NCBI GenBank assembly: GCA_021734045.1
Contig: JAIPJR010000024.1
Location: 1 to 33,359, forward strand
DNA length: 33,359 bases
Reading direction: 5' to 3'
From: Fidelibacterota bacterium
Lineage (GTDB): Bacteria; Fidelibacterota; UBA8477
Part shown: positions 1 to 21,783 of the stretch, in pieces
How the letters are laid out: each line of letters starts with the position of its first letter
How positions within the stretch are numbered: the stretch's first letter is position 1
Notes under the pieces: generated by a model
Seen by the model: only the letters and a program-made list of their open reading frames with translations
Databases searched by the model: none
Told to the model about the DNA's origin: nothing
Position numbers and translations under genes: made by a program

Positions 1-11
1 GCATACTTCAT
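1..11 (-). CDS. IS3-family transposase OrfB, first codons only (cut by window edge)
   Basis: The ATG at 11-9 on the minus strand overlaps the orfA TGA and reads M-K-Y before the window ends. As I recall, many IS3-group OrfB proteins (DDE catalytic subunit) begin with MKY. The same frame is the -1 frame relative to orfA and is open back to the A7 run, so it could also be entered by frameshifting. Only three codons are visible, so the call rests on position and context. Confidence 0.5.
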
Positions 12-313
12 TTGGGATCCTTTGAGAAAATGCTCACCACTTTTTTTAAGATATCACGCTCCTCCTTTACTGAACGGAGTTCCCGTTCAAGGGCGCGGAT
101 TTGTTCTTCTTCAGGGGTTTGGAGATGACCGGTTCCGGGGAATGCCGTTGACTGATCTGCCAAGTATTCCCGTTTCCAGCGGTGTAACATATTGGCGGTA
201 ATGCCAAGATCATCTGCAATTTCTTTTGCGGGTTTCCTACTTCGAAGCAATAACTCAACTGATTCTCGCTTGAACTCTGCTGGATATTGCCGCCGCTGTC
301 GCTCTGAATGCAT
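8..313 (-). CDS. IS3-family transposase OrfA (HTH DNA-binding subunit)
   Basis: This 101-residue protein is the usual size for an IS3 OrfA, which binds the element ends and forms the N-terminal part of the OrfAB transposase. An N-terminal helix-turn-helix lies at about residues 12-50 (YPAEFKRESVELL, then KEIADDLGI and HRWKREY). A leucine-zipper-like coiled coil lies at about 68-96 and ends in the family-typical ERDILKK. A strong ribosome site, GGAGGAGG on the minus strand (321-328), precedes the ATG by 7 bases. An A7 run near the 3' end is set as a frameshift heptamer (see the separate entry). The stop codon overlaps the ATG of orfB. Family assignment is confident. Confidence 0.88.
   Translation of the reverse strand: MHSERQRRQYPAEFKRESVELLLRSRKPAKEIADDLGITANMLHRWKREYLADQSTAFPGTGHLQTPEEEQIRALERELRSVKEERDILKKVVSIFSKDPK
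40..47 (-). promoter_or_regulatory. Probable -1 programmed frameshift site (A AAA AAA G)
   Basis: On the minus strand, orfA codons TTA AAA AAA GTG contain the heptamer A AAA AAA in correct register for a -1 slip. The frame entered after the slip has no stop and runs straight into the orfB ATG at 11-9. This matches the known IS3-family strategy for making the OrfAB fusion transposase. A stimulatory downstream structure cannot be assessed because the window ends. Confidence 0.6.
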
Positions 314-568: not shown

Positions 569-1735
569 ATGAAGAAAGCAGTTCTGCTACTCATATTAAT
601 GGTACCCTTTCTGGCATTTAGTCAGAATCTGGTGGTACAGGCCGATGTGGATCTGGCAGATTATGACATAATTTATTTGATGGATTTTGATTTTGAAAAT
701 GGCCAGAATAATCCACTTATTTTTCAGTATCGCCTCATGAATCAATCCACTTCAGCGATGCCACGCGTACGGATAAATTTTTCCCTGGATGCCTATATCC
801 CCTCAATGGACATGGATGGAGATGGCTCCTTCGATCGGACATTCAAGAATATTTTTGTTGTCAGTACAGAAATTGATACGCTCTTTCCTTCAAGCTATAT
901 CACCGTCTCAAGCCGCGATCTGGATCTGAATGCCGAAGGTCGGGAAGTACGCGACAGCCGCAACCACATGATAAGATTCATTAATACCAGTATCGAACAA
1001 AATTACGATGTTGGTAATCAGAACCAGATTATCTCCACGATTCTGGCCATGGGTAGAGTACCCGCTGGTCAATACCGCTTCGGTATTTCGGTGTTTGATG
1101 CTGAGAACAACGAAGCCGTGTACGCCTTTAATCCCAATAAAACCATTGTTATTCAGAATCCTACTACCATTCAATTAATCTCGCCTACGAATGATTACGA
1201 ATATATTGGTGACTTGTATCCGGTTTTTCAGTGGAGTTCTACCGGTTGCGAAAATTACGCTATAAGGATATGCGAGTACGATCCCAGGGTTCACTCGTCA
1301 CCGGACGATGCGATACAATCGGAATCCATGCTGCCCTTTCCTGACAATGGTGGCTATCTGGATGTGGGCACTGCTAACCAACTGGACTACTCCTCTTCCG
1401 GTGGCAGGCCACTGGAGTACGGTACATCCTACGTCTGGCGGGTGAAAAAAACCTGTATGACTACCGGTGCATATGAAGTTCTCTACAGTGATATTTACAC
1501 CTTCACCGTGAACGATGCCAGCCAACCACTCTCCCAATGCATGCAGCAAATCCGTAACATGTTGGGTGATAATCAATACAATGCCTTTTTCGGACCCAAT
1601 GGCCCCTTGAATGGTTTCGTAGATTGCGGTGATTTTTCACTGGATGGAAATCCCATTAGCATGGATGAGTTTGGCAACCTCGTGCTACAGTTTGCCGGTG
1701 GAATTTACACAATTGAAAGCATTACAACCCAGTGA
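569..1735 (+). CDS. Secreted protein with fibronectin-III-like domain, function unknown
   Basis: This 388-residue protein is not recognised as a named family. A signal peptide is clear (MKKAVLLLILMVPFLAFSQ, cleavage around residue 18-19). The first half, about 25-190, is probably beta-rich and contains an Asp-rich DMDGDGSFDR segment resembling a calcium loop. Residues about 199-312 read like a bacterial Fn3/Ig-type domain: ISPTN, then YPVFQWSS, then YGTSYVWRVKKTC, ending YTFTVND. The C-terminal 75 residues include several Cys. There is a weak AGAAAGG ribosome site. The gene ends 9 bp before the FecR gene, so the two are probably co-transcribed. A surface or periplasmic role is inferred from export and domain type only. 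Confidence 0.7.
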   Translation: MKKAVLLLILMVPFLAFSQNLVVQADVDLADYDIIYLMDFDFENGQNNPLIFQYRLMNQSTSAMPRVRINFSLDAYIPSMDMDGDGSFDRTFKNIFVVSTEIDTLFPSSYITVSSRDLDLNAEGREVRDSRNHMIRFINTSIEQNYDVGNQNQIISTILAMGRVPAGQYRFGISVFDAENNEAVYAFNPNKTIVIQNPTTIQLISPTNDYEYIGDLYPVFQWSSTGCENYAIRICEYDPRVHSSPDDAIQSESMLPFPDNGGYLDVGTANQLDYSSSGGRPLEYGTSYVWRVKKTCMTTGAYEVLYSDIYTFTVNDASQPLSQCMQQIRNMLGDNQYNAFFGPNGPLNGFVDCGDFSLDGNPISMDEFGNLVLQFAGGIYTIESITTQ

Positions 1736-1744
1736 GGTAAAAAA

Positions 1745-2458
1745 ATGAAATTGCTAAGCAAAATCTGTTTTCTGATCGCCTTTGGGGGGTACCTGCTTTT
1801 GCCTGCATATGGACAGGAAGCTGTGGGAGTAATTGCAAAATCAACAGGCCAGACATTTCATAAAAAGTTCAATTCCGACGAGTACATGCCGAAAGCCAAC
1901 ATTGGTTCAAAGATTATGAACAATGATTGGGTTAAAACCGGTGAAGATGGTTATGTCGCCCTGTTTTTTCTGGATGATAAAAGCCAGTTGAAAATTCGTG
2001 AAAATTCCGAGATGGAAATATTGGGCAGCGTGGAAAGAGGTCGCATCGATAAAACCATCTCTATGGACTTTGGTACCGTCAAGGCCAAAGTGGACAAGCA
2101 ACAGGGCGAATTTAGAATCGCAACACCTACCTCTGTAGCGTCCGTTAAAGGGACCGAATTTTGGGTAATTTCCGGACCTACTGGCGATCGATTTATCGGT
2201 CTGTCTGGAACTGTTGAAGTGGAAAATCGCTCCAGTGGCCAAACCACTACCGTTACCACAGACCAAACAGCTACCTCAGGATCTGATGGGAGTTTGGAAG
2301 TAACGGTGACAACCAATACAGATATCCCAGATGACCCGGATGAACCTACTACCACTGGTGATGAAGGTGGTAGCAGCACAACCCTCCATCAATTACGAAT
2401 TCGTGTTACCGACGAAAACAACAACGAGCGAGAACTCATTATCGAGTACGCTGAATAA
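1745..2458 (+). CDS. Exported FecR-domain protein
   Basis: This 237-residue protein has a signal peptide (about residues 1-24, ending PAYGQ). A FecR domain spans about 27-142, visible as VGVIAKSTG, then DWVKTGEDGYVALFF, and the core FGTVKAKV...ATPTSVASVKGTEFWV. The C-terminal part is a Thr/Asp/Gly-rich low-complexity linker (about 175-215) and a short tail. FecR domains are periplasmic; in iron transport FecR relays a signal from an outer-membrane receptor to a sigma factor. This protein has no N-terminal cytoplasmic or transmembrane anti-sigma part, so it is not a classical FecR regulator. It is followed by a beta-barrel and a CHASE2 cyclase. Its role as a periplasmic adaptor is inference. 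Confidence 0.8.
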   Translation: MKLLSKICFLIAFGGYLLLPAYGQEAVGVIAKSTGQTFHKKFNSDEYMPKANIGSKIMNNDWVKTGEDGYVALFFLDDKSQLKIRENSEMEILGSVERGRIDKTISMDFGTVKAKVDKQQGEFRIATPTSVASVKGTEFWVISGPTGDRFIGLSGTVEVENRSSGQTTTVTTDQTATSGSDGSLEVTVTTNTDIPDDPDEPTTTGDEGGSSTTLHQLRIRVTDENNNERELIIEYAE

Positions 2459-2485
2459 TCCCGGAAAAATCGGATTCCACACCCT

Positions 2486-5233
2486 ATGTCACGATTAAAA
2501 ATTTTATTCGCGGCCGCAGTCATCAGTACGTTCTCCTTTGCAGCGGATATGTCCTTCAGCAATTTTCAGGGGGAAATGGCCCATCTGCCGCCCCGTGAGG
2601 GGCTTCAGGGGCGCGATCTGGAGTTAGAGGTCATCTATACCGGTGACCAGGATGATGTAGCGGCAGCAAAAATTCTCTATCGACTCTACGGACAAGTGGG
2701 ATACCTGGAAACTTCCATGTCTTTCAAGGGATTAACGCTGACTGGTGTAATCCCCGGTGATAATGTGGCCGCCCCCGGCATCGAATACATCATCGTCATC
2801 CAACTGAAAGATGGTGGGATTCTGGCGTACCCGGCCATCGAAAATCCTATGGAACAACCGGTTTATGTTCCCATTGTTGAGCCACAATCCCAGGTGGAGA
2901 ACCGTCAAAGCGGCGCCCAGTCGGGTCAGGTGATTATTCTGACACCCGATCCGGGCGCGACCATTCCCTACGGCGAAGATGTGGTCATTGCGGTATCACT
3001 CTTTAACCTGGAGAATGTCGATGTCAATTCGATTAAAGTTTTCTTCGATAATGTAAATGTGACGCCCTATTCCGTCGTATCAGAGGATTTGGTTACCTAC
3101 AAGCCGGATTTTCTCCAGGCCGGGAATCACATGGTCTCCATCGAGGTGTCCAATCTGTACCGCGTACGAATTGCCACTACCAGTTGGAATTTTATGGTTG
3201 AATCCAAAGCCAAGTCCATGTTTCAGGTGGATTTGCACAGTAATCTTACCCTGAGTAACCGGTCCAACCTGATTCATATTCCCCAGTACGATTCAGCGAA
3301 AATCGTCACTGGTGTGGATGCACAGACAGTGGATGTGAGCCGTTTGGATTTCAGCATTGATGCAAATTTGGATTGGATTCGATTGAAATCCGGTGTGAAC
3401 CTGACGACCCAGGAAGATCCTACTCGCCAACCCCAAAACCGTTATAATTTCAGTGTCCAGAACTCATGGCTGCGCTATACTTATGGCGATGCCTCACCCA
3501 TGGTTAATCGCCTGGCACTCTGGGGAAAACGGGTGCGGGGACATTCGTTACGATTATTATCCAATTGGGCAACACTGGACATCGTTTCCGGTGAAACCGC
3601 CCGTAGTATCGTGGGGTCGGCTACTTTTGATTCTACCGGTATGCGTTGGAATCGGACGGGATACAGTTTCGAACGCAGTTTGTTTGGGATTCGTCCTGCC
3701 TTCGGAAACAGCCGCAAGTTTCAAATCGGTTTTTTCTATGTCCATGCTCGCGATAGTGTAAACTCAGTCAAACTCAGGCCCGGATTGGATCTCATGCACC
3801 CGTATCAAATTTCCGGGAGTGACAGTATCATCAATATCAATTTTGGTGACAATCAATTAATTACCTTCGGCGATACCGCCCAGATTGGATACAATTTTTT
3901 GGGAAGTTATCCGGAGGACAATATTGTTGTAGGGTCAGACCTGACCATTGGACTGGATGACCGGCGCATATTATTAGAATTTGAAGGGGCTATGTCGCTC
4001 AGCAATCGCAACATTTTCGACGGCGCATTGACCCGTGCACAGCTGGATACATTTTCCCTGCTCCAGGACAGCCTGGCCGATGATACTTTGGGCTCAGGCA
4101 GCCTTGACATCCCCTTTAGTGCTATTGATGATATGCTATTGAGCAGCGGACTGGGCTTTTTGCTTACTGACAACCAATTTGATCCGGCTAAACTGGAGAA
4201 GTATTTCGTTCTCAATAAGAACATGCTAATCCCTATCGATGTAAATAAGTTTGATCAAAACCCCCTGAAGGGCCTCACCTCCATTGCCTATTCCATGCGG
4301 TTGCGCATGAATTATTGGAATAATTTCATTTCAGCTACCTATAACTATGTAGCGCCCCTGTTTCGAGCTGCCGGAAGTCCATTTATCACTGCAGATGTCG
4401 CTGGATGGAAAATTTCTGATAAAATCCGATTGTTGGATAACATGCTTTACCTGAATCTGGGATATGAGGCCATGAAGGACAATGTACTCAGCCTGGATGA
4501 AAATCTTGAACCACGCACTGCGCTCACCAGTTACATCGGCGGGTTTACCTTTAATCCCGGACACGGTTTGCCGACATTTTCAGCGAATTTTAAATCGTAC
4601 ACCCGCGATAACAGCATTGATACGCTCTCAGCTGACACATCCGGATTCACGAATGACCCACGAATCCTGGACAATACCCTCTCCTCATCTATCAATCTGG
4701 TTTACAATCTGCGCCTGGGAAATGTCCAGAATAATATCAATTTGAATTATATGAATTCCGGTCGGAATGACTTACGAGTGGGCCGTAAAGGCCTTTTACA
4801 GTCCGCGGATCTGATTGGATTAAATTTACGCTCCGAATGGACGATTCCGCTGATTACAACCCTGACGGTACGCCGGAACATGAATGAGTTGTTCGTGAAA
4901 TCCAATCCCCTCTACCGCAGCAACCAATACCTGACCCTGGGTGGTGCAGCTTCCTATAATCTGTTCAATGGCCGGCTCAATCTTCGTAGCGGCCTTTCGC
5001 AAATAATGTCCGATCAGGAAAGCTATTCCAAAACTGATTCTGTGTTGGTAAAATCCCAGGAGAGTCAGCTAAAATTTGAATTGAGCACGCGCTATCGGTT
5101 TAAGCCAATCAATGTACGCAACACTTCCGCCAAGTCCCAATTGGCATTCATGCTGGATATGCGTCGTTACGCTGGCGAAAATTATAATTATGTTGATCGG
5201 ACATACTTCGTTAGATATGAGATGAATTTCTAA
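2486..5233 (+). CDS. Large outer-membrane beta-barrel protein with N-terminal Ig-like domains, function unknown
   Basis: This 915-residue protein has a signal peptide (about residues 1-19, MSRLKILFAAAVISTFSFA). The N-terminal region, about 25-235, holds two probable beta-sandwich units; the second begins with VIILTPDPGATIPYGEDVV and contains SLFNLENVDVNSIKVFFDN. From about residue 245 the chain shows alternating hydrophobic/polar strands with many aromatic residues and turns typical of a barrel (for example NFSVQNSWLRYTYGD, NYWNNFISATYNYVAP, LNLRSGLSQIMSDQ). It ends in RYEMNF, and a terminal Phe is the usual outer-membrane insertion signal. No named porin or receptor family is recognised, and no TonB plug is obvious. 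It lies between the FecR protein and the CHASE2 cyclase. There is no clear ribosome site before the ATG. Confidence 0.7.
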   Translation: MSRLKILFAAAVISTFSFAADMSFSNFQGEMAHLPPREGLQGRDLELEVIYTGDQDDVAAAKILYRLYGQVGYLETSMSFKGLTLTGVIPGDNVAAPGIEYIIVIQLKDGGILAYPAIENPMEQPVYVPIVEPQSQVENRQSGAQSGQVIILTPDPGATIPYGEDVVIAVSLFNLENVDVNSIKVFFDNVNVTPYSVVSEDLVTYKPDFLQAGNHMVSIEVSNLYRVRIATTSWNFMVESKAKSMFQVDLHSNLTLSNRSNLIHIPQYDSAKIVTGVDAQTVDVSRLDFSIDANLDWIRLKSGVNLTTQEDPTRQPQNRYNFSVQNSWLRYTYGDASPMVNRLALWGKRVRGHSLRLLSNWATLDIVSGETARSIVGSATFDSTGMRWNRTGYSFERSLFGIRPAFGNSRKFQIGFFYVHARDSVNSVKLRPGLDLMHPYQISGSDSIININFGDNQLITFGDTAQIGYNFLGSYPEDNIVVGSDLTIGLDDRRILLEFEGAMSLSNRNIFDGALTRAQLDTFSLLQDSLADDTLGSGSLDIPFSAIDDMLLSSGLGFLLTDNQFDPAKLEKYFVLNKNMLIPIDVNKFDQNPLKGLTSIAYSMRLRMNYWNNFISATYNYVAPLFRAAGSPFITADVAGWKISDKIRLLDNMLYLNLGYEAMKDNVLSLDENLEPRTALTSYIGGFTFNPGHGLPTFSANFKSYTRDNSIDTLSADTSGFTNDPRILDNTLSSSINLVYNLRLGNVQNNINLNYMNSGRNDLRVGRKGLLQSADLIGLNLRSEWTIPLITTLTVRRNMNELFVKSNPLYRSNQYLTLGGAASYNLFNGRLNLRSGLSQIMSDQESYSKTDSVLVKSQESQLKFELSTRYRFKPINVRNTSAKSQLAFMLDMRRYAGENYNYVDRTYFVRYEMNF

Positions 5234-5277
5234 AGGTATTCATTTGCGCTCGTTGGGCATATCTGACTGACTGACCA

Positions 5278-7740
5278 TTGCTATTGAAAAAATTACTGAC
5301 TAAATACGGCCCCGGCATCGGGATTACCTTCATCGCAATCGCGATTGTGACACTCCTGAAAGCTGCTGGCCTGTTCGATTTACTCAGTTATCAGATTCTA
5401 GATTTTAGCTTCAAAGTCCGCGGTCCCCTCTCCGGTTGGGCAGCACGTACCGGTGTCACCGCCGATAGTCTGGATGTGGTTCTCGTGGATGTGGATGATG
5501 AAAGTTTTCGGCTCGTTCCGGAAACGTGGCCATATCCCAGGGGCATAGTCTGGAATCGTGTGATTGAAAATCTCACCAATGCCGGCGCGAAAGTCATCGT
5601 ATTTGATATCCAGTTCGACTCCCGTGACCAATACACGCAAAATGTGTTGAATATCTATAAGGGCAACCCGCCGGAAAATTACAACGATGGTGACCGGCTA
5701 TTAGCTGAAGCGGTTCGATATGCAGAATCCCAGGGAACTGATGTCATCATGGCAGCCACTATGAAACGGGAGCCCACCCGTGTACCGCCTCAGATGATTG
5801 TCACACCCAATCAATATATCATGTCGGTACAACCAGAGTATGGATTGGTGGATGTACCGGAAGACCCGGATGGCTTTAGCCGTCAGTATGCAGTGTTCTG
5901 GTCAATGGAACACGAACCTACCGCTTGGTATCTCACGCTGGCTCTCAAAAGTGTTAAGGATTTCAAAAACTTACCGGATTCCGTGAGCATCAGCTATAAT
6001 CCGGAAACCAACCATTTCGAGTATGGTGACATAGAAATTCCCTCTTACGGGAGTTTCAAGCAGACTTTCCTGGTCAATTTCTACGGCCCCAGCTCCAAGG
6101 CAACATATCCACACTTGGATAAAGCCTGGTCCACGTTCAACCGCTACCCGCTTTCCAATGTGGTTGATACCGAAGATTATGATTTGAAAATGGAGGACAC
6201 CGATTGGATGTCCCTGTTCGACTCTACCAGTAGTTTCAATCAAATGATGCTCATGGTGGATGAAAATTACGAAATCCCCGAAAGTCCGTTTAAGGATAAA
6301 ATTTGCATTATCGGTGCATCGGTAGAGGTGCTCCACGACTACAAAAAAACGCCCTTTTTCACCTATGGTGGTGACCCGGTACTTCTACCTGGATTTGAAT
6401 TTCACGCCAATGCCATTCAGGAAATACTGGATGAAAATTTTATCCGCGTTTTCGGCTCAACACTGGAATTCACCAGCGACTCCGCTTTGACACAAATTGC
6501 GTTAATCGTATTCGTTGGCCTACTTACCTATATTTTCCTCACCGCATTTCACCCGTTGGTGGGGGGGGTGCTCATTATTGTGGAGATCTTGGTGTATCTT
6601 AGCCTGAGCATTGGGTTATTCACTGCCGATGTATTATGGCTGTTGAAATTTTTACTTTCTGCGATCCTGCCCGATTCCTTTGTGCAGAATGCTGAGTGGC
6701 TGGTCATTAATACCCCCAAAACCGGCGGATCCCTGGTGGTCCCGGTGATTGCGCCGGTGGCTACGATTCTCCTCACCTACGGTGGAAATGTCATCTACAA
6801 ATTTCTGGTGGAACAGAAGGATAAACGCTTTCTCCGCAAAGCATTTGGAGCCTATATCTCGCCCGAACTGATTGATATGATGCATGAAAATCACCAGCAG
6901 CCCAAGTTGGGTGGTGAGGCTGCGATTTGCACGCCCTATTTCACCGACATTCAGGGATTTTCAACTTTCTCGGAAATGCTGAGTGCGGAAGAATTGGTTA
7001 CGCTCCTGAATGAATACCTCACCGAAATGACCAATATCCTACTGGACGAAAAAGGTACACTGGATAAATACGAAGGTGATGCAATCATCGCGTTCTTCGG
7101 TGCTCCGGTACGATTGGAGGATCACGCGGAGCGGGCTGTCCGGACGGCTATCCGAATGCAAAACCGGCTCAGCGAATTACGGGAAAAATGGAAAGCCGAA
7201 GGTGACCGGTGGCCGGAAATTGTCCATATCATGCAAATGCGCATCGGGATTAGCTCTGGAGAAATCGTTACCGGAAATATGGGCAGTGCCGGACGCATGA
7301 ACTACACCATGATGGGTGACCCGGTGAATACCGCCGCCCGCCTGGAGTCCTCCGCGAAACAATATGGCGTGTACACACAAATCAGTCATCATACAGCCAA
7401 ACTTTTAAGCCAAGAGTTCGCTCTGCGTGAATTGGGGACGACCCGGGTAAAGGGAAAACAGGAAGCATTGCAGACATTTGAAGTTCTGGGCTTTACCAGG
7501 GACTTAACCGATGATGACCAGAAGCTGCTGGAAATCTGGCCGCAGGCGCTGGAAGCCACTCGTCAGCAACGATGGAATGACGCCATTAAGCTCTTCCAGG
7601 AGGCAGAAAAGTTTGAACGTCAGTTTGAAGGACGCAATTCCAATCCCTGCCAAACCTACCTGAATGACCGTATCCCGGTTTGGCAGGAAAACCCGCCTGG
7701 TGATGAGTGGGACGGCGTGTGGGTACTCACCTCCAAATAA
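5278..7740 (+). CDS. CHASE2-domain class III adenylate cyclase
   Basis: This 820-residue membrane enzyme is predicted to make cAMP from ATP. An N-terminal membrane segment lies at about residues 13-35. An extracytoplasmic CHASE2 sensor at about 40-395 includes VVLVDVDDESF, the WPYPRG segment, GAKVIVFDIQFD and PGFEFHANAIQ. Three or so membrane segments follow (402-423, 426-447, 487-510), then a cytoplasmic cyclase at about 545-735. Catalytic residues are present: metal Asp557 (FTDIQGFS) and Asp601 (KYEGDAIIAFFG), Lys597 and Thr677 at the purine-specificity positions (the Lys/Thr type seen in bacterial adenylate cyclases), Asn684 and Arg688 (NTAARLE). The start is TTG at 5278 or 5284; an in-frame TGA just upstream rules out a longer form, and no ribosome site is visible. 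It probably ends the envelope block. Confidence 0.9.
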   Translation: MLLKKLLTKYGPGIGITFIAIAIVTLLKAAGLFDLLSYQILDFSFKVRGPLSGWAARTGVTADSLDVVLVDVDDESFRLVPETWPYPRGIVWNRVIENLTNAGAKVIVFDIQFDSRDQYTQNVLNIYKGNPPENYNDGDRLLAEAVRYAESQGTDVIMAATMKREPTRVPPQMIVTPNQYIMSVQPEYGLVDVPEDPDGFSRQYAVFWSMEHEPTAWYLTLALKSVKDFKNLPDSVSISYNPETNHFEYGDIEIPSYGSFKQTFLVNFYGPSSKATYPHLDKAWSTFNRYPLSNVVDTEDYDLKMEDTDWMSLFDSTSSFNQMMLMVDENYEIPESPFKDKICIIGASVEVLHDYKKTPFFTYGGDPVLLPGFEFHANAIQEILDENFIRVFGSTLEFTSDSALTQIALIVFVGLLTYIFLTAFHPLVGGVLIIVEILVYLSLSIGLFTADVLWLLKFLLSAILPDSFVQNAEWLVINTPKTGGSLVVPVIAPVATILLTYGGNVIYKFLVEQKDKRFLRKAFGAYISPELIDMMHENHQQPKLGGEAAICTPYFTDIQGFSTFSEMLSAEELVTLLNEYLTEMTNILLDEKGTLDKYEGDAIIAFFGAPVRLEDHAERAVRTAIRMQNRLSELREKWKAEGDRWPEIVHIMQMRIGISSGEIVTGNMGSAGRMNYTMMGDPVNTAARLESSAKQYGVYTQISHHTAKLLSQEFALRELGTTRVKGKQEALQTFEVLGFTRDLTDDDQKLLEIWPQALEATRQQRWNDAIKLFQEAEKFERQFEGRNSNPCQTYLNDRIPVWQENPPGDEWDGVWVLTSK

Positions 7741-7874: not shown

Positions 7875-9440
7875 ATGGATGTGAAATTGCATAGAGCACG
7901 GATTCTCTGGACAGATGATGAAATTGACCTGCTGAAGCCCCACATTCTTTTCCTGAAACAGAAAGGTTTTGATGTACTTACTGCCACCAATGGCGAAGAT
8001 GCCATCACATTGGCGCGTCAACAGCCTATTGATTTGGTGCTTCTGGATGAAATGATGCAGGGGAAAGATGGTTTGGAAACGCTGAGTCTTTTGAAAGAAG
8101 AACATCCGGCTCTCCCGGTTATCATGATTACCAAGAACGAGGAAGAATCGTTGATGGAAGAGGCCATCGGTGGTCAGATTGCCGACTATCTGACCAAGCC
8201 GGTGAACCCCTCACAGATTCTCTCGGCAATAATGAAGCATCTGGAAAAGAAACGTATCTCCCAGGACCGCTTGTCACAACGCTACATTCAAGCGCTGAAT
8301 GAACTTTCCGACCGCTTGTCAGAACGCCTAACCCCTTCGGAATGGATTAACATCTACCATCAACTTACGCAGTGGGATCTGGATCTGACCGGTAGTAATG
8401 AAGCCGATCTGGATGAAATGCTGTCTCAGCAAGCTCAGGAAGCCAATAACTTATTTTCACGATTTATGATGCGTGAGTATGAACAATGGGTGAATGCGCC
8501 CTCAGATGAGCGCCCCACACTCTCCCCTGATGTATTTCGTACATTCATCAAGCCCAGATTGAATCAGGGGCAGAAAATTCTGTTGGTGGTGATGGACGGT
8601 TTACGCTGGGACCAGTGGCTTACCCTGGAAAGTCAGCTCCATAGCGATTTTAAAATTAATCGGCACGGATATTATTCGCTGTTACCCACAACTACAGAAT
8701 ACAGCAGGAATGCCATTTTTAGCGGGCTGTTTCCCGATGACATGGCGGAATTTCACCCGGAATGGTTCCAGACTGATGAAGAGGGAGGTCTGAACCAGCA
8801 TGAACGGGAATTTCTCATTGAGCAACTCCACCGGCTGGGATTGGATATTAAACCCGAACCAAAATATGCCAAGATTATTACAGCTCAGCAAGGCCAGCAA
8901 ACGGTGAAACAATTCAGCTCCTGGAGTAATCAGCAATTGATTACCCTGGTGGTGAACCAGGTGGACATTCTGGCGCATCAGCGCACCAATTCCCCCTTGT
9001 TACAGGATTTATTGCCCAACGAAGCCAGCTATCGCCAGGTGGTGCGTGCGTGGTTTGAAAATTCCTGGCTGTTTGATTTGATGAAGGAGGCGGCAAGGAA
9101 TGGTTTTACAACCCTGGTGACCTCGGATCACGGGACGGTCAAGGTAAAACGGCCAACTCAGATCAAAGCAGACCGCGAAGCATCGGTCAACTTGCGCTTC
9201 AAACAGGGTCGGAATCTGAAAGCCAATCCACGGGATGCCTGGTTCATCAATGACCCGAAACGGTTACGGATTCCTTCGGGTGCCAGCAGTGACACACTGG
9301 CCATTGCCCTGAGCGATTTTTACTTCCTCTATCCCACCAACTATCGAAAATACCAAAACCGGTATAAAGATACCTATCAGCATGGTGGCCTCTCTATGGC
9401 TGAAATGATTATTCCATTTGTCATACTGGAACCCAAATAG
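7875..9440 (+). CDS. porX: PorX-like response regulator with PglZ-type phosphodiesterase domain
   Basis: This 521-residue protein is close to the length I recall for Porphyromonas gingivalis PorX. A receiver domain (residues about 8-128) has the acidic pocket Asp14/Asp15, phospho-acceptor Asp58 (LVLLDEMM), Thr86 and Lys108 (LTKPVNP). A helical linker (about 130-225) leads to a PglZ domain of the alkaline-phosphatase superfamily (about 230-515), with metal and nucleophile motifs VVMDGLRWDQW, LPTTTEYSRNA and TSDHGTVKVKR. PorX is the regulator of the type IX secretion system with kinase PorY, and its PglZ domain has been reported to cleave oligonucleotides, including cyclic ones. No PorY or secretion gene is visible here. 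tsaE follows after 6 bp, a neighbourhood I recall from Bacteroidota genomes. Confidence 0.88.
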   Translation: MDVKLHRARILWTDDEIDLLKPHILFLKQKGFDVLTATNGEDAITLARQQPIDLVLLDEMMQGKDGLETLSLLKEEHPALPVIMITKNEEESLMEEAIGGQIADYLTKPVNPSQILSAIMKHLEKKRISQDRLSQRYIQALNELSDRLSERLTPSEWINIYHQLTQWDLDLTGSNEADLDEMLSQQAQEANNLFSRFMMREYEQWVNAPSDERPTLSPDVFRTFIKPRLNQGQKILLVVMDGLRWDQWLTLESQLHSDFKINRHGYYSLLPTTTEYSRNAIFSGLFPDDMAEFHPEWFQTDEEGGLNQHEREFLIEQLHRLGLDIKPEPKYAKIITAQQGQQTVKQFSSWSNQQLITLVVNQVDILAHQRTNSPLLQDLLPNEASYRQVVRAWFENSWLFDLMKEAARNGFTTLVTSDHGTVKVKRPTQIKADREASVNLRFKQGRNLKANPRDAWFINDPKRLRIPSGASSDTLAIALSDFYFLYPTNYRKYQNRYKDTYQHGGLSMAEMIIPFVILEPK

Positions 9441-20619: not shown

Positions 20620-21201
20620 ATGAGCGGAATGCAACCCATTACTGATGAACAACTCATTGCCCAATTTCAGGCGGGTAGGGAGTCGGCATTCATCGAACTG
20701 GTGAATCGTTACAAAGATCGTCTCCTAAATTTCGTTTACCGGTTTGTGGGTGATCGGGATGAAGCTGAAGACATTGTTCAGGATACCTTTCTAAAAGTCT
20801 ATAAAAACCGCCACGCCTATCGTGAGGTAGCAAAATTTTCCACCTGGATTTACACCATCGCGGGAAATTTGGCGCGCTCTGAATTGCGGAAGCGCCGGCG
20901 TCATAAGACATATAACATGAGCCAGATTGGCTTGGAAGATCGGGATTTTGACCCGCCGGATACTGATTTGGGACCAGATTCGCATGTGAGCTGGCGATTT
21001 GAGGAAGCTGAAATCCAGCGCGCCATACGCCAGTTACCGGACCAATTCCGCACCATCATCATTTTGCGAGATATTCAGGAACTTTCTTACGAAGAGATCA
21101 GTAGAATACTGGACATTCCGATGGGTACGGTCAAGTCACGCGTTAACCGGGCCCGCTTGAAAATGCAGGAATTATTGAAACACCTAAAGGAGAATGGCTA
21201 A
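20620..21201 (+). CDS. ECF-family RNA polymerase sigma factor (RpoE-like)
   Basis: This 193-residue protein has the two ECF sigma domains. Region 2 (about residues 20-95) contains ESAFIELVNRYKDRLLNFVY, the DEAEDIVQDTFLKVYK core contact and FSTWIYTIAGNLARSELRKRRR. Region 4 (about 133-185) contains IRQLPDQFRTIIILRDI, ELSYEEISRILDIPMGTVKSRVNRAR. The zinc-finger protein that follows is the expected anti-sigma factor. It is probably co-transcribed with holA (1 bp gap), which suggests constitutive expression held in check by the anti-sigma. The stress it answers cannot be read from sequence; envelope damage would suit the cell-wall neighbours. Confidence 0.93.
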   Translation: MSGMQPITDEQLIAQFQAGRESAFIELVNRYKDRLLNFVYRFVGDRDEAEDIVQDTFLKVYKNRHAYREVAKFSTWIYTIAGNLARSELRKRRRHKTYNMSQIGLEDRDFDPPDTDLGPDSHVSWRFEEAEIQRAIRQLPDQFRTIIILRDIQELSYEEISRILDIPMGTVKSRVNRARLKMQELLKHLKENG

Positions 21202-21258
21202 TCGTAAACGGCTAGATCCTCGAACGAATTAGACAAATGGGTAATGGGAGCTTCTGAC

Positions 21259-21783
21259 ATGAAGTGTCAATTGGTTTTAGACAGTTATACTGCTTATGTT
21301 GATTATGAATTAACTGCGACAACGCGAACACAAATTGAAGACCATCTGAAGCAATGCCGTCCGTGTCGTGAAGTCTTCCAGGAGTTAGACAGCATGGTGG
21401 CCAGCCTGAATGACATCTCACCCATTCAAACCTCCCCCGACTTCAACGAACGCTTACTTTCAAAAATATCCAAATTAAACACAGAACCCGCTCAATTACC
21501 CTGGTATCGTCTGCCTACCGTAAAATTAAGCGGATACGCTACAGCAGCAGGTGTGGCTTTAGCGCTGGTATTCAGCCAGTGGATGAGTCCCCCTGCTTCC
21601 ACACTACCAGCAACAAACTCGAAATCTCTGCCGGTTGCAGGTCAGACAACACCTAAGGCAGTGAATGAACCGGTGTTTGTCTCACAGGACACAACCGGAA
21701 GTGGCACAGATTCGCTTCAATTACACGACAGGCGAACGCTTAACCCCGATCAGCCACTCCAACTTGTGAATCAACGGCCCTAA
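21259..21783 (+). CDS. Zinc-finger anti-sigma factor, membrane-anchored
   Basis: With the start at 21259 the protein has 174 residues. An N-terminal zinc-binding anti-sigma (zf-HC2) domain shows Cys3, His29, Cys33 and Cys36 (HxxxCxxC). A single membrane segment follows near 91-108 (SGYATAAGVALALVFSQW), then a Pro/Thr/Ser-rich extracytoplasmic tail of about 65 residues. An ATG at 21244 would add five residues, but GGGAG lies 8 bases before the ATG at 21259, so the latter is preferred. It should hold the upstream ECF sigma factor at the membrane until a signal triggers release. The tail has no recognised sensor domain. Confidence 0.85.
   Translation: MKCQLVLDSYTAYVDYELTATTRTQIEDHLKQCRPCREVFQELDSMVASLNDISPIQTSPDFNERLLSKISKLNTEPAQLPWYRLPTVKLSGYATAAGVALALVFSQWMSPPASTLPATNSKSLPVAGQTTPKAVNEPVFVSQDTTGSGTDSLQLHDRRTLNPDQPLQLVNQRP

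Follow-up and report, generated by a model that had tools for sequence, protein, structure and literature searches.

Do four close-set genes for two exported proteins, an outer-membrane barrel and an adenylate cyclase form a pathway that carries a signal from the outer membrane to cytoplasmic cAMP? This question is raised by one end of the window, by which we mean the whole analysed stretch of 33,359 nucleotides from a Fidelibacterota bacterium (contig JAIPJR010000024.1), and a preliminary description of this DNA had proposed such a relay. Our analysis suggests that the four genes probably form one operon for an outer-membrane-to-cAMP relay, as a split-gene counterpart of NsrA-CyaK of Sinorhizobium. 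The basis is formed by gene structure, domains, predicted folds, intact catalytic residues, conservation, FecR-barrel fusions and FecR-CHASE2 pairing, from which we infer every contact, the direction of the signal, the cue and the cAMP output.

Organization of the gene cluster

The features of the locus are:
411 to 568, + strand: upstream region, presumed promoter region, 89% homologous to the 5S-to-Fn3 spacer of the congener L003
569 to 1735, + strand: Fn3-fold protein gene (388 aa)
1745 to 2458, + strand: FecR-domain protein gene (237 aa)
2486 to 5233, + strand: outer-membrane barrel gene (915 aa)
5278 to 7740, + strand: CHASE2 class III adenylate cyclase gene (820 aa, TTG start)
7875 to 9440, + strand: porX, a conserved neighbour outside the four-gene unit, encoding a response regulator-PglZ protein, the T9SS regulator (NCBIfam NF052313, 650 bits against a cut-off of 300)

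As described earlier, the four genes are consecutive and lie on the same strand, with intergenic gaps of 9, 27 and 44 nt. No forward terminator was found between them; the single match, a weak one, lies inside the cyclase gene (2 found versus 7.1 expected). The corresponding spacer of L003 is closely preceded by the 5S gene with its terminator. The earlier statement that there is no sigma factor holds for the cluster itself, but not for the surrounding DNA, in which ECF sigma and zinc-finger anti-sigma genes are present at 20620-21783, 13 kb downstream.

Predicted properties of the four proteins

The nature of all four proteins was largely as had been read from the letters alone. The first had been called a secreted Fn3 protein. 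A Pfam search gave no family above its cut-off, but the protein has a signal peptide, two beta-sandwich domains and a helical C-terminal tail, and its predicted fold shows tandem beta-sandwiches of which the second (residues 196-317) is Fn3-like (mean pLDDT 87.6), with 3pdd as top Fn3 structural match (Z 8.8, rmsd 2.1 over 83). Neither a cysteine-haem motif nor a T9SS tail was seen in its sequence, and a PHROGs search with the Fn3 and barrel proteins returned nothing.

In the FecR protein the signal peptide runs straight into the FecR domain (residues 63-156, nt 1931-2212; PF04773, E 3.8e-10). The protein has no transmembrane segment and no cytoplasmic anti-sigma part, which agrees with the claimed lack of a cytoplasmic segment. 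Its C-terminal strand tail, RELIIEY, is conserved.

The third protein starts with a signal peptide and ends in a C-terminal Phe; two beta-sandwich domains span approximately residues 31-131 and 150-238. Behind the two sandwich domains, a 26-strand barrel with a helical insertion (517-596) was predicted for residues 249-914 (pLDDT 88.4), as expected for the proposed outer-membrane barrel. The best structural match of the barrel was MtrB (6r2q_B; Z 20.3, rmsd 5.0, 458 aligned), followed by a runner-up with Z 17.1. The Pfam search detected no family above cut-off in this protein, and even with E values up to 1 neither a plug nor an STN domain appeared.

Domain matches and hydropathy agree on the fourth protein, which had been described as an inner-membrane cyclase with a periplasm-facing CHASE2 sensor. 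CHASE2 spans residues 20-415 (nt 5335-6522; E 1.2e-36) and Guanylate_cyc residues 552-730 (nt 6931-7467; E 1.5e-25). The hydropathy profile places TM1 at 14-32, followed by the periplasmic CHASE2 domain and TMs at about 403-421, 427-445 and 482-500. All catalytic or adenine-specifying residues (D557, K597, D601, T677, N684 and R688) are present, and these six residues are kept in 60/60 main-locus orthologues and 17/17 paralogues. The tail of the cyclase is also conserved, ending in DGVWVLTSK. In some lineages the AC score is weak (about 190 bits). Replacement of their cyclase was considered and rejected, as the tree places these proteins in the main-locus cyclase clade.

Conservation of the four-gene unit

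Conservation of the gene order, which had been set beforehand as a test of the relay, was determined in 60 loci from 24 of the 28 Marinimicrobiota families. All four genes were found in the same order in 55 of the 60 loci, which exceeds chance. Four of the five exceptions were contig ends or masked sequence, and one was truly without the cyclase. The CHASE2 cyclase followed the barrel in 58/60 loci; of the other two, one ends at a contig end and one is without cyclase. Across the loci the median inner gaps were -1, 37 and 11 nt. In 42 measured loci porX came after the cyclase, at a median distance of 95 nt and a maximum of 1781 nt. None of the papers in the collection searched dealt with both Marinimicrobia and PorX.

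The unit usually lies immediately downstream of the rRNA operon, from which a terminator separates it, and ahead of porX. Of the 53 loci that extend 250 nt or more upstream, 44 had a 5S or 23S gene directly upstream on the same strand, and an intrinsic terminator followed the 5S gene in 34/43 loci, compared to 36/215 mononucleotide shuffles. By eye, most of the nine other 5S loci showed imperfect terminator hairpins. The set was also intact where no rrn was found upstream (L121, L123-L125 and L033). L033 belongs to another phylum and harbours the same four genes, permuted to cyclase-Fn3-FecR-barrel. Its cyclase nests within the Marinimicrobiota clade in the tree, suggesting that the four-gene set travelled together. 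The gene order is therefore kept through the phylum, and the set survives permutation in another one, so that the lack of co-conservation named beforehand as a refuting outcome did not occur. The argument from adjacency is weakened, however, because synteny around rrn and porX is generally conserved.

Fn3-FecR-barrel trios without a cyclase were present in 17 fetched loci (L132-L148) with varied neighbours, several of them cut by contig ends; no cyclase partner for these second trios was found in the fetched stretches. In addition, the rrn-linked locus L079 has lost the cyclase. Together, these loci indicate that the trio can stand alone.

FecR is encoded with barrels and with CHASE2 proteins

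One locus of the window's own genome (L150) encodes a fusion of FecR to a C-terminal barrel-like region. In 10 Marinimicrobiota loci a FecR gene immediately precedes that of another CHASE2 cyclase. The same holds for FecR and CHASE2 genes in 13 loci of another phylum, where all four CHASE2 proteins scanned are Ser/Thr kinases. The FecR-CHASE2 pairing was again present in 3/3 alphaproteobacterial loci chosen by the cyclase alone.

We also compared evolutionary distances between the proteins, as partial r controlled for PorX. Over 38 loci this gave 0.74 for FecR-barrel, 0.35 for FecR-CHASE2 and -0.06 for FecR-cyclase domain, although shared rates can also correlate distances. In a subset of 26 loci without the fast clade, chosen post hoc, the values were 0.76, 0.81 (the strongest FecR-CHASE2 value) and 0.26, respectively. 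TsaE and TsaB control correlations were at most 0.27. In this subset CHASE2 is more closely correlated with FecR and the barrel than with the catalytic domain of the same protein. Judged from these sequences, FecR is the shared partner.

The recognition target of CHASE2 has been stated to be unknown (PMC5192318), and a PDB search with a CHASE2-containing profile gave cyclase-domain structures only. The recurrent FecR-CHASE2 pairing offers a testable answer, namely that the ligand is a FecR-domain protein. We put forward tentatively that FecR-domain proteins may be general direct CHASE2 ligands, with one periplasmic coupling that joins barrel inputs to cyclase, histidine-kinase or Ser/Thr-kinase outputs, and of which the Marinimicrobiota operon would be a separable, reconstitutable form. 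This operon suits such a test: in contrast to NsrA, its barrel, FecR and cyclase are made as individual proteins and could be combined in vitro.

Comparison with known systems

In S. meliloti, nsrA is reported to lie immediately upstream of cyaK. On pSymB of strain SM11 (L185), a gene for a protein with a FecR domain (85-179), TPRs and a C-terminal barrel region is located one gene before that of the CHASE2 cyclase CyaK. This gene is our candidate for NsrA, which it matches in where it lies, in its length and in the residues 600-1200 that PMC7529298 gives for the NsrA barrel. The cAMP response that an external protein signal elicits depends on both the NsrA receptor and CyaK (PMC7529298, PMC13001267). 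As in NsrA-CyaK(-Clr), an outer-membrane barrel, a FecR domain and a CHASE2 adenylate cyclase are encoded side by side in Marinimicrobiota, and the features of this type are present here as an intact-site CHASE2 adenylate cyclase adjoined by a FecR domain and a predicted barrel. The plant symbiont Sinorhizobium thus already provides a known relative with these parts, and the separate-gene form is what differs. NsrA combines FecR, TPRs and barrel in one 1209-aa chain, whereas in Marinimicrobiota FecR and barrel are separate genes and there is no TPR, so that the unit is a variant rather than a strict member of the NsrA-CyaK type. It further has the extra Fn3-fold protein, no adjacent CRP gene and a larger barrel that matches MtrB.

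Other systems share fewer parts. In a Campylobacterota cluster, a FecR-domain outer-membrane protein is likewise clustered with a CHASE2 cyclase, and its authors propose one pathway; this cluster also encodes a TPR protein as well as a phosphodiesterase, is not reported to have an Fn3 protein of its own, and spread by horizontal transfer, whereas the Marinimicrobiota unit is phylum-wide in one place (PMC9239204). In the BiofilmReg operon of Burkholderiales, too, the gene of a CHASE2 sensor is immediately preceded by one for FecR, but FecR is fused to LysM there, the CHASE2 protein is a histidine kinase with response regulator output, and there is no barrel (PMC5192318). In magnetotactic bacteria, the gene of MtxA, a secreted Fn3/Big-fold protein, directly precedes a CHASE2 cyclase gene; MtxA carries TPRs, FecR or a barrel are not reported there, and no phenotype was reported for an mtxA mutant (PMC4439547).

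The preliminary description had pointed to the classical role of FecR domains in relaying a signal from an outer-membrane protein. In FecA-FecR-FecI, which gave the FecR domain its name, an outer-membrane protein passes the signal to periplasmic FecR. The FecR domain and the proposed outer-membrane-to-FecR link are common to both, whereas the sigma-type model is weaker and NsrA-CyaK is closer: no sigma factor lies beside fecR, FecR has no cytoplasmic segment or TM, the barrel has two beta-sandwich domains instead of a TonB-dependent plug or STN, and the output is a cyclase.

A possible relay and its alternatives

In the relay that we favour, the 26-strand barrel would form a surface receptor or gate together with the Fn3-fold protein and with its own beta-sandwich domains in the periplasm. 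The FecR protein would sit on the periplasmic face of the barrel, perhaps held by its C-terminal strand tail, and report the state of the barrel to CHASE2 of the inner-membrane cyclase. CHASE2 would then set cytoplasmic cAMP synthesis, and CRP-like proteins may read the cAMP; three cNMP-binding proteins are found elsewhere in the window's genome. Both links of the proposed chain are supported, FecR-barrel by fusions and FecR-CHASE2 by recurrent pairs and correlated evolution, with NsrA-CyaK as experimental precedent for the whole, but a constant need for the cyclase is not supported (L132-L148, L079). If true, this would be a surface-sensing route for an uncultured marine phylum, nearly universal across the sampled families.

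The trio could instead work by itself in the envelope, as a pore for transport or secretion aided by two accessory proteins, and the cyclase would then only be co-expressed with it. The 17 trios without cyclase, the generally conserved synteny and a barrel fold nearest to MtrB and ushers, which are conduits and not receptors, fit this reading. We nevertheless regard it as unlikely, given the cyclase behind the barrel in 58/60 loci, the set staying together when permuted in L033, the closer correlation of CHASE2 with FecR and barrel than with the cyclase domain in the subset of 26 loci, and the NsrA-CyaK precedent. A flow in the reverse direction, in which the cyclase responds to some other cue and the trio is expressed under cAMP control, with FecR and barrel as outputs, appears improbable. 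It is in line with smc02177, a S. meliloti FecR gene near cyaD1, which the cAMP regulator Clr targets and which is dispensable for shoot-signal perception (PMC5498481). This dispensability also speaks against the relay that we favour, though the shoot signal runs through CyaK (PMC7529298). Against it, FecR genes are also found paired with CHASE2 proteins that have kinase outputs, perception requires NsrA (PMC7529298), which our match identifies as a FecR-barrel protein, and such control would be autoregulation because the cyclase shares the operon with the trio.

MtrB is by a margin the best structural match and has the same 26 strands, which would fit an electron conduit, with redox state signalled by cAMP. 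The barrel differs from MtrB in its two N-terminal beta-sandwich domains and its genetic setting. However, no CxxCH haem motif is present in any of the four proteins, and no cytochrome gene was found among nearby domain matches, so that we give this reading hardly any weight. Very improbable as well is positional inertia, that is, functionally unrelated genes that stay next to the rRNA operon because their expression there is high or follows growth rate, as the 5S or 23S genes directly upstream might suggest. Read-through from the rRNA operon was rejected as main cause of the location because of the terminator hairpins after most 5S genes, and the set stays together in L121, L123-L125 and L033, where no rrn was found upstream.

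Four consecutive genes conserved across the Marinimicrobiota

The window covers the opening 33 kb of contig C98 in a 2.5 Mb genome; among named organisms, the nearest relatives of this genome are Candidatus Neomarinimicrobiota. The four consecutive genes from which the preliminary description had inferred a possible outer-membrane-to-cAMP relay are present at 569-7740 as described, with the following neighbours:

8-313, minus strand, HTH_Tnp_1 transposase fragment in an insertion element
569-1735, plus strand, Fn3 gene
1745-2458, plus strand, FecR gene
2486-5233, plus strand, barrel gene
5278-7740, plus strand, CHASE2 cyclase gene
7875-9440, PorX, response regulator-PglZ, T9SS regulator, which follows the operon in most lineages

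Pfam recognises only the FecR and cyclase genes. Fold predictions for the Fn3 and barrel proteins were built on alignments of 60 and 71 sequences. The first protein is predicted to consist of two beta-sandwiches, the second of them Fn3-like, and the third to carry two beta-sandwich domains ahead of a barrel of 26 strands, with MtrB as its best structural match (Z 20.3, rmsd 5.0, 458 residues aligned). The cyclase has a periplasmic CHASE2 domain with one transmembrane segment ahead and three behind, and its six class III catalytic residues are intact.

A cyclase-based scan returned 39 related loci, and on almost every Marinimicrobiota contig of sufficient reach the Fn3, FecR, barrel and cyclase genes follow one another in this order, at about 25-60% identity. 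Among 149 genomes sampled phylum-wide, model matches numbered 108 for the barrel, 100 for Fn3, 116 for CHASE2 and 118 for FecR. We fetched 60 loci covering 24 of the 28 family labels, and 55 of them contain all four genes in order. Three exceptions (L077, L090 and L094) end at a contig end, L128 has masked sequence where the Fn3 gene is expected, and L079 is devoid of the cyclase. The inner gaps are small (medians -1, 37 and 11 nt; outliers are rare) and the gap to porX varies up to 1781 nt, so that the four genes form a tighter unit than their surroundings. In one clade of main-locus cyclases (L105-L129) the catalytic domain is fast-evolving (about 190 bits vs about 400), with all six catalytic residues still present. 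The observation of four genes is real and conserved far beyond what one window could reveal. All four also occur in L033, a locus from another phylum, in the order cyclase-Fn3-FecR-barrel. Since its cyclase nests within the Marinimicrobiota clade in the tree, the set moved jointly and was reordered.

Position behind the rRNA operon

Upstream sequence of 250 nt or more was available for 53 loci. In 44 of these, an rRNA operon (16S-tRNA Ile-tRNA Ala-23S-5S) of the same strand immediately precedes the Fn3 gene, with 68-721 nt between 5S and the latter (for example L027 2157-5413, L017, L030 and L007, among others). Because of this placement many contigs break at the operon; rrn repeats make such breaks a common artefact of assembly. 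A terminator hairpin follows the 5S gene in 34 of 43 loci under a strict rule, compared to 36 of 215 shuffled sequences; the operon therefore most likely carries its own promoter. No 5S gene was seen in the window itself. Its contig starts inside the insertion element (1-410), and homology to the congener L003 picks up again at position 411. Judging from L003, the element separates the operon from the place where a 5S gene would be expected, and it sits about 140 nt past the end of 5S.

SprA is also encoded in the window's genome. An ECF sigma factor gene and, behind it, the gene of a zinc-finger anti-sigma protein lie at 20620-21783, 13 kb from the operon, and show no sign of connection to it.

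FecR genes accompany barrel and CHASE2 genes in independent arrangements

Three independent gene arrangements, with FecR as the hub, supply the pairings required for the relay. One of them is the permuted four-gene set of L033. FecR accompanies the barrel without a cyclase in the second trios (L132-L148), which indicates that the envelope part can function alone or with a distant partner. Both are fused in the window's own genome (L150:5157-7415, contig C116, 752 aa). The fusion has a signal peptide, a FecR domain (58-156) and a linker, and its C-terminal part, with Phe as the last residue, looks like a barrel, a call made from sequence rather than fold prediction; no cyclase lies near this fusion. 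Most of the phylum has FecR domains within open reading frames of about 700-820 aa. By search pattern, a conserved strand tail ends the FecR proteins of 41 of 59 main loci and 11 of 12 second trios; none of ten CHASE2-pair FecRs has it, as these end differently. This tail is a candidate barrel-docking element.

In the second-trio barrels checked among L135-L143 (L135, L136, L137, L139 and L141), the first of the N-terminal beta-sandwich domains, which lies before about position 142 of the model, is missing. L144, L147 and L148 represent a third kind of trio, in which a divergent barrel accompanies Fn3-like proteins of about 700-2000 aa and a FecR protein of about 400 aa.

FecR also pairs with CHASE2 where there is no barrel. 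In 10 loci (L152-L161) a second CHASE2 cyclase of the Marinimicrobiota is immediately preceded by a FecR gene of its own. In the phylum holding L033, 13 loci have FecR immediately ahead of CHASE2 genes (see L186-L199); of the CHASE2 proteins there, the four that were scanned all proved to be Ser/Thr kinases. On Ruegeria and Shinella plasmids a CHASE2 cyclase lies 57 and 44 nt downstream of FecR, respectively, and a Paracoccus plasmid is similarly arranged.

Neighbours of the FecR-CHASE2 pairs in L152 and L154 end in T9SS-like tails. Other CHASE2 cyclases of the Marinimicrobiota (L149:4591-8196 and L163) have an SH3-M48 peptidase gene after them and not a FecR gene before. L033's phylum also contains L031, a record named Fibrobacter succinogenes.

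Correlated evolution of the envelope proteins

Partial correlations of distances were calculated with PorX distances as the control for history. Over 38 loci the values were 0.74 for FecR-barrel, 0.35 for FecR-CHASE2 and -0.06 for FecR-cyclase domain. In a post hoc subset of 26 loci, without one fast-evolving cyclase clade, they were 0.76, 0.81 and 0.26, respectively, and between CHASE2 and the catalytic domain on the same polypeptide the correlation was only 0.40. The neighbouring cytoplasmic proteins TsaE and TsaB gave -0.10 to 0.27. These values fit periplasmic contact, but could also be explained by rates common to envelope proteins.

Relation to the NsrA-CyaK system

The cAMP response of S. 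meliloti to an external protein signal requires both NsrA, an outer-membrane protein, and CyaK, a CHASE2 cyclase (PMC7529298, PMC13001267). On SM11 pSymB, the CHASE2 cyclase gene is preceded by one for a 1209-aa protein, in which a FecR domain (85-179) and TPRs (about 397-606) come before a C-terminus of barrel type; for NsrA the barrel has been published as residues 600-1200 (PMC7529298). This experimentally tested relay thus appears to contain the same three parts as the operon. Counting against the relay, smc02177, a FecR gene near cyaD1 in S. meliloti, is dispensable for perceiving the shoot signal (PMC5498481); since that signal runs via CyaK, the cyclase neighbouring smc02177 may have escaped testing. 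The best explanation is that the operon encodes a relay, a variant of the NsrA-CyaK kind with its parts on split genes and an extra Fn3-fold protein. In this reading a signal would pass from the barrel through FecR to CHASE2, with the contacts and the cAMP output as proposed steps.

In Burkholderiales, FecR adjoins a CHASE2 histidine kinase (PMC5192318). A single pathway was proposed in 2022 for a Campylobacterota cluster of a FecR-domain outer-membrane protein, a TPR protein, a phosphodiesterase and a CHASE2 cyclase (PMC9239204).
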